A DNA stretch of 64,000 nucleotides from Janthinobacterium rivuli. Its GTDB lineage: Bacteria; Pseudomonadota; Gammaproteobacteria; Burkholderiales; Burkholderiaceae_D. Location of the stretch: NCBI RefSeq assembly GCF_029690045.1, contig NZ_CP121464.1, positions 3,720,001 through 3,784,000 of the forward strand. Reading direction: 5' to 3'. Shown here piece by piece: positions 52,102 to 56,491 of the stretch (the first letter of the stretch is position 1; every line of letters starts with the position of its first letter). A program made the position numbers and the translations under genes. The notes beneath the pieces were generated by a model. It did no database searches and was not told where the DNA came from. It saw only the letters and a list, made by a program, of their open reading frames with translations.

Positions 52102-52212
52102 CGCGTCTCCAGTTTCTATGATGTCAATATGGGCCCAAGGCTTGGTCTAGCCTACCCGATATATACGTGGATGGCAGCTTGTTTGGATTCAGTATTTTTT
52201 GAAGGAACGACC

Positions 52213-53430
52213 ATGGACCTGGGCGATAGCACCGGCAAGGCAACAAACGCCGCCGCCGTGCGCAAGCGCGATGCGCTGCCATATATCCTGCTGTTCATCC
52301 TGCTGGCGGGTTTGTTGGCAGTGCTGGCAGGCGCCCTGCTGCCGCCCTACTACCACGCCGTACCGGCACTGCTGTGGAGCCTGGGATTTTGCGTCAGCGG
52401 CATGCTGCTGGGCTTTTTGTTCGGCATACCGCGCACCCTGCCATCGGGCACCGTCAACGCAGCCCCGCCCGACGAGCGCACCAATGGCAAGGCCCGCCCC
52501 ACGGACGAGCCGCCGGCCGCCGGGGCCGATGCGGCGGCCGCAAACCCCAGCAATACCCTGTTCCTGGGCACGCCCACGCCCATGGAAATCAATTCAAATC
52601 TGGTGGAAGTGTCGGACTGGCTGACAAAAATCATCGTCGGCGTGGGCTTGATCGAGCTCAAAAGCCTGCCCGGCAGCGCGCGCAGCATGGCCGCCTTCAT
52701 CGCACCGAGCCTGGCCACCGATACGGGCACGGCCATGGCCGTCGTGGGCGGCATCATGCTGTTCTTTTCCGTGCATGGTTTTTTGATCGGCTACCTGCTC
52801 ACGCGCATCTACCTGTCCATCATGATCAAGCGGGCCGACAGCATGGTCAAGAACGAATCCGTGCGCCTGGAGAGCGGCAAGGAAATCGAAGTGACGGAAC
52901 TGAGCCGTTTGCAGCAAAAATCGCTCGACGACATGCAGGAAGCCGTCACGCAGCTGCTGCTGGCGCATCCGCCGGACGGGGACGCGGCCGTCACGGCCCT
53001 GGCCGGCATGCCGGCGGAGAAAAAGCCCGCCAGCCTGGTGCTGTGGCTGGACGACCACCCGCGCAACAATACCTTGCTGGTGGAACAACTGGAACGGGAA
53101 AACATCAAGGTGGACCAGGCCGTATCGACGCGGCAGGCGCTTGCCATGCTGCAACAGAAGCCTTACGCGCTGTTCATCACGGACATGGCACGGGTGGAAA
53201 ACCGCCGCCGCATCAAGGATGCGGGCGTGCGCACGGTGCGCGAAGTGCGCCAGGCGCTGCCCGCGCTACCGATCATCGTGTATTGCAGCAAAGATACGGT
53301 CGCCAGTTACGGCACGGAAGCGGAGGCGGCCGGCGCCCGTTTCATCACCACGTCGGGCACCAGCCTGCTGGCGGCCGTCAACAAGCTATTGCATGAGGAA
53401 CGCCAGGATGGCGATCAATCCACCCGGTAA
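52213..53430 (+). CDS. Three-TM protein with C-terminal receiver-like domain
   Basis: A 405-residue protein; AAGGA lies before the ATG. Helices lie at about residues 18-40, 46-68 and 174-200. Between them NSNLVEVSDWLTKIIVGVGL resembles the YEATS-linked three-TM (YLATT) modules found in bacterial conflict and signalling loci. A coiled coil (about 205-260) leads to a receiver-like fold: DD280-281 in VLWLDDHPRNN, Asp324 in LFITDMARVENRR, Ser in VYCSKD; the usual conserved Lys is absent. It is convergent with the Imm22-like and caspase-fusion genes. Function unknown; a membrane switch is likely. Confidence 0.68.
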   Translation: MDLGDSTGKATNAAAVRKRDALPYILLFILLAGLLAVLAGALLPPYYHAVPALLWSLGFCVSGMLLGFLFGIPRTLPSGTVNAAPPDERTNGKARPTDEPPAAGADAAAANPSNTLFLGTPTPMEINSNLVEVSDWLTKIIVGVGLIELKSLPGSARSMAAFIAPSLATDTGTAMAVVGGIMLFFSVHGFLIGYLLTRIYLSIMIKRADSMVKNESVRLESGKEIEVTELSRLQQKSLDDMQEAVTQLLLAHPPDGDAAVTALAGMPAEKKPASLVLWLDDHPRNNTLLVEQLERENIKVDQAVSTRQALAMLQQKPYALFITDMARVENRRRIKDAGVRTVREVRQALPALPIIVYCSKDTVASYGTEAEAAGARFITTSGTSLLAAVNKLLHEERQDGDQSTR

Positions 53431-53795
53431 TGGTAGCTGCCCACGTAATGCAGCGAACTGCGCTGCGGGTGCGCCAGCTGGTTCGGCGCAAACACGCACA
53501 CGCTCGTGTCAGCCAGCAAGTGCTGCCCATCCGCGTCCGCGCACGCCTGCGCCAGCCAGCTGTCGCCATACGACACGCCATCGAGCAATTGCGCCAGCGG
53601 CACGGCCGAGGCCAGCATCGCGCTTTCAAAGCAGGCTGGCTCATAGCACGTGAGGCCCGTTTCCAGGAAGAATGGCGACGGCACGGCATCGCCATCCTCC
53701 GTGTACGTGGGCGACAGGTAGGCCTGCAGCGCTTCCCAGCTGGGAAAACGCCCGCTGCAGGCAAACACGTGGACGATGGGCAAGCTGCCGGACAC
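53415..53795 (-). CDS. Imm22-like small protein
   Basis: A 126-residue cytoplasmic protein starting at GTG two bases after the caspase-fusion stop, so the two are cotranscribed. The pattern IVHVFACSGRFPSWEALQAY, TYTEDGDAVPSPFF and GLTCYEPACFE resembles Imm22 immunity proteins. As an immunity-like partner to an exported caspase fusion its role is unclear. Its end overlaps the end of the TM-receiver gene by 16 bases. The family call is tentative. Confidence 0.5.
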   Translation of the reverse strand: MSGSLPIVHVFACSGRFPSWEALQAYLSPTYTEDGDAVPSPFFLETGLTCYEPACFESAMLASAVPLAQLLDGVSYGDSWLAQACADADGQHLLADTSVCVFAPNQLAHPQRSSLHYVGSYHYRVD

Positions 53796-53797
53796 GC

Positions 53798-56491
53798 TTA
53801 CAGCTTCTCCATCTTTTGCCGCACGGCCGGAGCCGTCGCCGCCGTCGGCGCCAGTTCCAGATAGGTTTTATAGGCGGCCTTGGCTTTGGCCGCATCGCCG
53901 GCCTTGGCATAGGCGTCGCCCAGGTTCAAATAGGCGATGGCGCGCGACGGATCCATCTTGACCGTGTTTTCAAACCAGCGGGCCGCTTCGCGGAACTTTT
54001 CCTGCTTGTAGAAGACAAAACCCAGGTTATTCGCCGCCAGCGCGAAATCGGGACGCAGTTTCAGCGCTTCCGTAAATTGCGCTTCCGCCGCCGCATACTG
54101 TTTCTCCTTGTACAGCTGCAAGCCGCGGTCGTTGGCCCGCTGCGCCAGCTGACGCGTCGAGCTCGGCACGGCGCCCGGCGTGACGATCTTCTGTTCGCCA
54201 CCCTGCAAATCCTTCACCGTCACGCTGGCCGCCGCCGGTTTCGCATCGAGCTTGCTGTTCAGGGCGATGGCTTCCGTCGACAACTGCGTCGTGTTCGGGC
54301 TGAGGAATTCCGTCTCGCCCGGCAATTCAAACACGAAATCTCCCCCTTCCGAGCCAGGCAAGCTGCCGAACGCGGGCGTCTGGTTCGACACGCTGGACAC
54401 GGCCGGCGCCACGTAGGCCGCCAGTTCCGTGGCCGTGATGAGGCCGTCGCCGTTCAGGTCGCCCTTGCCCGCCAGGCCCTGCAGCAGGGTCCACGTGAAT
54501 ACGGAGTGGCCGTTCGGCCCGCCGTCGGCCACCAGCTGGTCGCCGCCGCCAGCCGTCAGCATTTGCCGGCCGATGCGCTTGGCGTTGTCGCGCAGGAAGG
54601 AGCTGGAACCAGCGCCGCGTGTCAGGCCCAGGCCGCTGTAGCAGGCATCCATGACGAAGAACGCGTGCTTGGCCGTCAGCGATTCCGCGATATTCTGGAT
54701 TTCCGTCATCGGGATCGCATCCGTGGCGAACTGCGCCGGGTCGGAATCGACGGGCACGATGTAGCCCAGGTCGCGTCCCGAGCTCAGCTTGCGCGTGGCG
54801 CCGTGGCCGGCGAAAAAGACGAAGATGCGGTCATTCTTTTGCACGCCGCCATGGGCCAGCTTGTCATGGAAGGCGGCCAGGATGTTGTTGCGCGTCGCTT
54901 CGCCGTTTTTCAGGGTCACGACGCGCTCTGGCGCAAACGCAAACTTTTCAATCAGCGTTTCGCGGATGCCTTGCGCGTCGCGCACCGCATATTGCAATTT
55001 CGGCCACTTCGCATAATCGTCGATGCCGATCACCACGGCCCAGGAATTGGCGTAACCGGTGGTCACAGGCACTTTCTCGGGCGCCGGGGCCGTGCTTTTT
55101 GCCACCTGGAAGCTGGTGCCATCCCAGCCCGCGAATTGATAGCCTTCCGCGATCAGCTTGTCGAGCACTGCCGGCAAGGCTTTTACCGTGCGTTCGTGGA
55201 TGTCGTGGAACAGGACGATGCCGCGCCCCGCCTTGTCGACGGACGCCAGCACGCGGTTCGTGATGGAACTAGGCACGGGGTCGGCCCAATCGAGCGAATC
55301 GATATTCCACATCACGGATTTCAAATGGGCATCGGCCAGCGCGGCCATGCCTTCGCTGTTGCGCGCGCCATACGGGAAGCGGAACAGCGCGGCCCGCTCG
55401 GGGCTGATGGCCTTTAATAAAGTGTCGGTGCCGAGAATTTCGCCTTTCAGCTTGTCGCCCGTCTGTTTCGACAATTGTGCGTGACTGAAACTGTGGTTGC
55501 CCACGGCATAGCCCTCTTTCATCAGCTTACGGCTCACTTCCGCGCCCGCGTTCAACTTGGCGTGGCCTTCCGCATCGAGCGAACCGAGGTTGCGGCCCAC
55601 GTTGAAGAACACGGCCGGCACGCCATATTGTTTCAGGATGGCGCTGATTTCTTCCGTGTAGCGGCGGTGCGGGCCGTCATCAAAGGTCAGCACGATGGTT
55701 TTCTTCGGCAAGCCCAGGCCGAAGATTTCCGCCTCATCTTTTTTTGGCACGGGCTTGGCTTCGGGCACAGAACCTGCCGGCGGCACCGCATACGGCACGA
55801 CGATGCCGTTTTCCTTCAAAATCTGTTCGCGGCTGTAGAGTTTTTTCAGCTGCGCCACATAATCGTCCCACCGTTCGCGCTTGAGTTCGATGGCGCGCTG
55901 GCCAAGGCTGCCGAAAATTTGCCGGATTTCCTTCTCGTAATTGCGCTCGATCTCGCCCAGCGCGTCGAGGTCTTCGGAAATGCGCTTGTGCAGCTTGATG
56001 GCCGGCAAGGACGAATCCTTGGCCACGTCGGCCAGCATGCTTTGCAGCAGCTCGCGGAAAGCCAGGCGGTCCGCGTCGTACAGGCCGGGATCGGATTCGA
56101 TATACGTCAACAGGCTGTCGAGCGCCTCGAAGCGGCCCGGATTGGTGGGCGCCGTCAGCTGGTCGAGCGCAAGATCGAGCTTGGCGATGCGTTCCTGGTT
56201 TTCATGGAACAGCGCCTGCCCCACTTTACGGGCTTCGTCGCGCGCGCCTTCCGGCAAGCTTTGCTCGTCAGCCAGCAGCACGATGATCTTGCGGAAATTG
56301 CCCAGCAAGTCGCGGAACTGGCTGGCCACGGCGGCCGTGTCGACGGTGGATTGGGGCGCGGCGGCCGGGCTGCCCGATGCGGGTACGCCGGGCGTGGCGG
56401 TGGCCGCGGGACGCGTGTAGCTATAAATGCCGGCACCAGCGGCGAGTGCCACGACAACGGTGGCGGCGATCTTGATCGGTTTGGAAGTCAC
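53798..56491 (-). CDS. Polysaccharide deacetylase-caspase-EF hand-TPR fusion
   Basis: An 897-residue protein, GTG start, with an N-terminal membrane anchor or signal (IAATVVVALAAGAGIYSY). Residues about 60-230 are helical; 260-455 form a NodB deacetylase (TFDDGPH with D271/D272, GNHSFSHAQ, FRFPYGARN, LFHDIHE); 480-735 form a C14 caspase fold with FFAGHG (H563) and MDACYSG (C617), interrupted by an EF-hand loop DLNGDGLITATE (678-689); 780-897 hold TPRs. All catalytic residues are kept. It should act in the periplasm. The domain combination is unusual; role unknown. Confidence 0.85.
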   Translation of the reverse strand: MTSKPIKIAATVVVALAAGAGIYSYTRPAATATPGVPASGSPAAAPQSTVDTAAVASQFRDLLGNFRKIIVLLADEQSLPEGARDEARKVGQALFHENQERIAKLDLALDQLTAPTNPGRFEALDSLLTYIESDPGLYDADRLAFRELLQSMLADVAKDSSLPAIKLHKRISEDLDALGEIERNYEKEIRQIFGSLGQRAIELKRERWDDYVAQLKKLYSREQILKENGIVVPYAVPPAGSVPEAKPVPKKDEAEIFGLGLPKKTIVLTFDDGPHRRYTEEISAILKQYGVPAVFFNVGRNLGSLDAEGHAKLNAGAEVSRKLMKEGYAVGNHSFSHAQLSKQTGDKLKGEILGTDTLLKAISPERAALFRFPYGARNSEGMAALADAHLKSVMWNIDSLDWADPVPSSITNRVLASVDKAGRGIVLFHDIHERTVKALPAVLDKLIAEGYQFAGWDGTSFQVAKSTAPAPEKVPVTTGYANSWAVVIGIDDYAKWPKLQYAVRDAQGIRETLIEKFAFAPERVVTLKNGEATRNNILAAFHDKLAHGGVQKNDRIFVFFAGHGATRKLSSGRDLGYIVPVDSDPAQFATDAIPMTEIQNIAESLTAKHAFFVMDACYSGLGLTRGAGSSSFLRDNAKRIGRQMLTAGGGDQLVADGGPNGHSVFTWTLLQGLAGKGDLNGDGLITATELAAYVAPAVSSVSNQTPAFGSLPGSEGGDFVFELPGETEFLSPNTTQLSTEAIALNSKLDAKPAAASVTVKDLQGGEQKIVTPGAVPSSTRQLAQRANDRGLQLYKEKQYAAAEAQFTEALKLRPDFALAANNLGFVFYKQEKFREAARWFENTVKMDPSRAIAYLNLGDAYAKAGDAAKAKAAYKTYLELAPTAATAPAVRQKMEKL

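Follow-up and report, generated by a model that had tools for sequence, protein, structure and literature searches.

Proteins that join a deacetylase, a metacaspase and tetratricopeptide repeats (TPRs) were described in 2012 as the "Xanthomonas-type metacaspase," in a set of 17 sequences from Xanthomonas, Xylella, Stenotrophomonas and two Acidobacteria that all carry the catalytic dyad. The accessible part of that paper gives, descriptively, a mass of 97 to 100 kDa in Xanthomonas and reports a TrmE (MnmE) neighbor in Xanthomonas, Xylella and Stenotrophomonas, with rnpA and yidC in front (PMC3501461). Here, we examine a gene of this architecture in Janthinobacterium rivuli, within a window of 64,000 nucleotides (NZ_CP121464.1, positions 3,720,001 to 3,784,000), together with the Imm22-like gene directly downstream. 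The fusion gene (53798..56491, minus strand, GTG start, 897 amino acids; open reading frame [ORF] calling and Pfam) encodes a real, conserved and functional-looking protein of an already described kind, which by architecture, sequence and dyad is classified as a Xanthomonas-type metacaspase. A preliminary description of this DNA knew of no described system with the arrangement, a statement that the 2012 paper overturns. Our literature search found no recognized experiment on a deacetylase-metacaspase protein in Janthinobacterium.

The window fusion shares with the Xanthomonas type its domain order, an intact Cys-His dyad and conservation across genera, and at 96.6 kDa it falls just under the Xanthomonas range. 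A copy from the same class (locus L156, 6031-8703) is 63% identical, has the same domains and is flanked by YidC and MnmE genes, DnaA being close by. The window fusion differs in lacking the MnmE neighbor, which is no part of the type definition, in carrying an N-terminal anchor without a lipobox and in the Imm22-like gene that follows it in part of one genus. Unlike the window protein, the CE4 peptidoglycan deacetylases PgdA of Streptococcus pneumoniae (2c1g) and Bc1960 of Bacillus cereus (4l1g) lack an attached caspase-like domain and TPRs. Compared with metacaspases, the paracaspase MALT1 and orthocaspases (6w8r, 7qp0, 7ak1), the window protein adds an EF-hand-like loop in the C-terminal half, the deacetylase fusion and predicted export.

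Domains and catalytic residues of the fusion

Pfam matches to PF01522 (amino acids 262-391, 93.1 bits), to PF00656 (Peptidase_C14; 484-707, 63.6 bits) and to several TPR families over about 785-885 are far above chance. With conservation and fold comparison, the CE4/NodB deacetylase domain can be drawn at amino acids 255-463 (55103..55729; this and all further features of the fusion are on the minus strand) and the C14 caspase-like domain at 480-725 (54317..55054), while Pfam and the structure model place the TPR region at 781-885 (53837..54151), where mean column conservation is 0.784. Invariance was judged in 248 aligned rows, comprising the best 120 homologs from each of two seeds (out of 1797 and 1465), 7 loci chosen by a motif containing the catalytic Cys, and the window protein itself; the set thus covers close relatives only. 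Asp271 and Asp272 of the CE4 motif (55676..55681), His563 (54803..54805) and Cys617 (54641..54643), the sole Cys of the protein, are invariant in 248/248, as are the key residues of the CE4 motifs (TFDDGP, HxxxH, RFPYG, DxxDW and LxH). The two enzyme domains with intact catalytic residues and the terminal TPRs, as first read from the ORF translations, are thereby confirmed. In front of them, a helical region at amino acids 52-235 (55787..56338; Pfam, model) has no Pfam match, yet it is conserved (mean of 0.658 for 56-235).

Two further acidic residues of the C14 domain, Asp615 at the Cys-2 position and Asp505, are invariant in all 248 rows. The acidic S1 pocket of TbMCA2 is formed by Asp95 and Asp211, and Asp505 is likened to Asp95 by reading rather than by residue-level alignment. 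By fold, the C14 domain comes closest to metacaspases that cut after Arg/Lys and to MALT1; the 50 listed entries include no human caspase, and a PDB sequence search with the caspase domain alone gave no match at 0.01.

Within the C14 domain, amino acids 678-689 (54425..54460) read DLNGDGLITATE, with the key residues invariant in 248/248 and helices predicted on either side at 661-676 and 687-702. We call this loop EF-hand-like because of its motif, its conservation and the flanking predicted helices, and not for its Pfam score; the EF-hand loop that had been placed inside the caspase fold therefore stands on the first three grounds and falls short on the last. The loop is not exclusive to the fusion, an idea that we rejected. 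In the set of 30 nearest C14 loci, which counts that of the window, 12 have it, namely 3 fusions and 9 of 27 non-fusions, and in those 12 it sits 56-71 residues behind the Cys motif. The non-fusion proteins with the loop have the same spacing as the fusion, but non-fusion loci lack an FDDGP motif in the same frame. Among 32 further PF00656 loci (L001, L003 and L162-L191), none of the 14 with a recognizable Cys motif (all DACRN) had the loop, and 18 gave no motif match. An EF-hand motif has been reported in 7 archaeal orthocaspases (accessible part of PMC6426788). The loop is thus a trait of a subgroup of caspase homologs.

Predicted export and distribution

A hydrophobic helix at amino acids 5-25 (56417..56479; structure model, hydrophobicity) could serve as an anchor or a signal, and 224 of 241 proteins (the window protein and homologs) have a hydrophobic stretch near the N terminus. 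A lipobox match was found in 104/120 second-seed homologs, and visual inspection shows one in the L100 and L156 copies as well. Among the 248 aligned relatives, a single Cys is found in 122 and two in 88. From the hydrophobic N terminus, the lipobox in many relatives and the catalytic role of the only Cys, we infer an envelope location for the fusion, as a membrane-anchored periplasmic protein. The same features support the earlier suggestion of a protease that is exported and fused to a glycan deacetylase.

Searches at E 1e-100 detected the fusion in 53 of the 245 family genomes sampled (10/44 genera), in 6/398 genomes of a phylum sample and in 3/369 of a class sample, with its own genome counted in each tally; since such searches evaluate only a few candidates in each genome, absences are no proof. 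Horizontal transfer of the fusion is likely, because it is 63% identical to the class-level relative L156 yet present in only 10 of the 44 sampled family genera. Two copies carry in-frame stops (three TAG in L071 of genome G008, one TAA in L072 of G010), which suggests that the gene is being lost in some lineages of the family.

The downstream Imm22-like gene

Two bases behind the fusion ORF (53796-53797) lies an ORF of 126 amino acids with a GTG start (53415..53795, minus strand), as noted at the outset. Its product passes the family cut-off of PF14112 (DUF4284; 40.4 bits against 27 in Pfam), a family named as immunity to nuclease-type toxins (accessible part of PMC3482391). Whereas known Imm22 immunity proteins adjoin polymorphic toxins, the window gene adjoins a conserved enzyme gene and is often absent there. 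We judge it to be no functional partner of the fusion.

The preliminary description had taken this gene as a hint of self-protection and proposed a search for the same pair in other genomes; that search found Imm22 absent beside homologous fusions. Within the genus, the fusion is present in 36 of 40 genomes and Imm22 in 27, leaving 9/36 fusions without it. In three of these nine (L053, L147, L148), the fusion and the convergent receiver-domain gene seen in the window face each other at 15-55 bases, a gap that leaves no space for Imm22. The other six (L146, L149, L145, L150, L054, L055) have the fusion in other surroundings, with no window neighbor gene found in 11-15 kb. Among fusion-bearing genomes of other sampled genera, Imm22 is adjacent in 0/34. 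PF14112 occurs outside the genus in three sampled family genomes; two of these have the fusion but on a different contig, and the third has no fusion. Named genomes supplied 40 Imm22 loci: the 14 from Janthinobacterium are all beside a fusion, and the 26 others show no fusion in their available flanks, some of which are <7 kb. On a fusion tree of 27 of the 36 genus fusions (including all nine without Imm22) and five outgroups, Imm22 presence needs four changes, where the least forced number is three. A single gain with three losses accounts for the four changes only if G256/G257 split first; otherwise, the pattern calls for one gain with four losses, or for several gains.

No segment near the N terminus of the window Imm22-like protein is hydrophobic enough to resemble a signal (1.33), though values of at least 1.5 were seen in 8 of 115 relatives. 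Its structure model is confident (pLDDT of 94.6), and comparison of the model with PDB gave no match at E 0.001 and 15 weak ones to E 10, uninformative on function. Co-occurrence, tree changes and a likely difference in compartment led us to reject an immunity pairing. That pairing fails because 9/36 genus fusions lack Imm22 and adjacency is confined, among the sampled genomes, to this genus, and the association of the two genes is genus-level and probably incidental.

Proposed function and alternative explanations

On balance, we regard as probable the following explanation, which includes a separate role for Imm22. An N-terminal anchor would hold the fusion in the periplasm, where the CE4 domain would deacetylate an envelope or exported polysaccharide, most likely the N-acetylated sugars of peptidoglycan. 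The C14 domain would cleave after Arg or Lys, probably in a calcium-dependent manner, and the fold's C-terminal half would be shaped by calcium at the EF-hand-like loop; calcium gating is plausible given the invariant loop residues. The TPRs may bind a protein partner or substrate and so choose the partner. The likeliest use of the protease would be self-processing at basic residues behind Cys617, or cleavage of a TPR-bound envelope protein, and such proteolysis could activate, release or remove the deacetylase. Candidate self-processing sites are Arg625, Lys/Arg638, Arg639 and Arg642, near loops modeled with low confidence; Arg625, Arg639 and Arg642 are invariant, and position 638 is Lys or Arg in 99% of relatives. 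Residues 1-470 have a calculated mass of 51 kDa, and the comparison with a 55-kDa Xanthomonas enzyme, from which self-processing was suggested (accessible part of PMC3501461), is suggestive at best. The Imm22-like protein would be separate and probably cytoplasmic, sharing at most transcription with the fusion.

Several observations weigh against parts of this explanation. Pfam EF-hand_5 scores 12.5 bits on the loop against a cut-off of 25.9 (E 0.11). The model of the fusion has a pTM of 0.43 and a pLDDT below 50 in loops 619-631 and 650-660, so neither domain arrangement nor self-processing can be judged from it. The window fusion has no lipobox, and the single match among 120 first-seed homologs is probably spurious, which bears on whether the N terminus is an anchor or a cleaved signal. 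A conserved operon partner was sought, and no neighbor cluster recurred in more than 4 of 21 loci, those 4 from one genus, so no cross-genus neighbor points to a substrate; the loci compared were that of the window and one from each of 20 of the 53 family genomes with the fusion, with crude ORF calling in GC-rich DNA that may miss partners. An incidental pairing also has to accommodate strict adjacency, since all 27 genus genomes with Imm22 have it beside the fusion, with 2-17 bases between the aligned parts, and purifying selection, which implies that Imm22 does something. Median dN/dS is 0.25 for Imm22, 0.16 for the receiver-domain gene and 0.045 for the fusion (16 distinct genomes, three of 19 table rows repeating a genome). 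Lastly, work cited in the accessible part of PMC3501461 reported that the product of a gene of the same type in Xanthomonas campestris pv. glycines reacted with caspase antibodies and that caspase-deficient mutants did not die.

A possible but less probable explanation is that Imm22 is an orphan immunity gene, in the operon by chance and guarding against a toxin of other strains, unlinked to the fusion. The family name and published toxin partners (accessible part of PMC3482391), purifying selection and the patchy presence in the genus are consistent with this; against it, Imm22 relatives at 41-50% identity have no obvious toxin neighbor in ORF lists that were read by eye and not run against family models.

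The Xanthomonas findings have been read differently, as a programmed-cell-death protease in which a caspase-3-like executioner kills the stationary-phase cell and the deacetylase is secondary. Besides the antibody and mutant results, a DEVD-cleaving activity in X. campestris argues for this, but the accessible part of that report does not name the gene behind it (PMC4006831). We doubt that the DEVD activity is that of this protein, because the putative acidic S1 pocket does not fit. The invariant Asp at Cys-2 and the fold matches described above are a poor fit to DEVD cleavage, and the lipobox and hydrophobic N terminus would place the protein outside the cytoplasm. We therefore consider a death role unlikely for the window fusion.

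Very improbable is a toxin-immunity pair, in which the fusion would harm its own cell or neighbors and Imm22 would protect. The tight adjacency, the family name and a dN/dS under purifying selection yet higher than in the neighbors, as immunity proteins may show, speak for it. Against these stand the missing partners and the four presence changes on the tree. Moreover, the fusion is strongly conserved and has no variable toxin end, its C terminus being the TPRs, and Imm22 has no clear export signal, so any contact between them would have to precede export. Least probable of all is that a calcium-switched periplasmic protease governs its own fused peptidoglycan deacetylase while a cytoplasmic protein of the Imm22 fold, recruited in core Janthinobacterium alone, keeps the pre-export enzyme inactive, lineages without Imm22 relying on export alone.

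Genomic context

The neighbors of the fusion in the window are homogentisate dioxygenase, Imm22-like and receiver-domain genes, and the nearest named homologs are from Janthinobacterium. The convergent receiver-domain gene (52204-53430, plus strand) encodes a C-terminal receiver domain (PF00072), with hydrophobic N-terminal segments seen by eye and no kinase or output domain above the Pfam cut-off; at its 3' end it shares 16 bases with the Imm22 ORF. The genome, a single contig of 6.33 Mb, has two more C14 domains, at 526047-526709 (L001, 115.2 bits) and 2766963-2767301 (L003, 26.5 bits) of contig C1. A scan for defense systems (PADLOC) matched generic caspase and TPR models only.

Implications

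The deacetylase-metacaspase family extends from Xanthomonas to Janthinobacterium, its relatives and further Burkholderiales. Its members look like envelope enzymes with an Arg/Lys-shaped protease, a poor fit to the DEVD-cleaving, "caspase-3-like" enzyme of cell death that has been put forward for Xanthomonas. An adjacent Imm gene does not imply immunity unless it travels with its partner. With these two readings corrected, a stalled question is reopened, and both activities and the calcium loop are directly testable.

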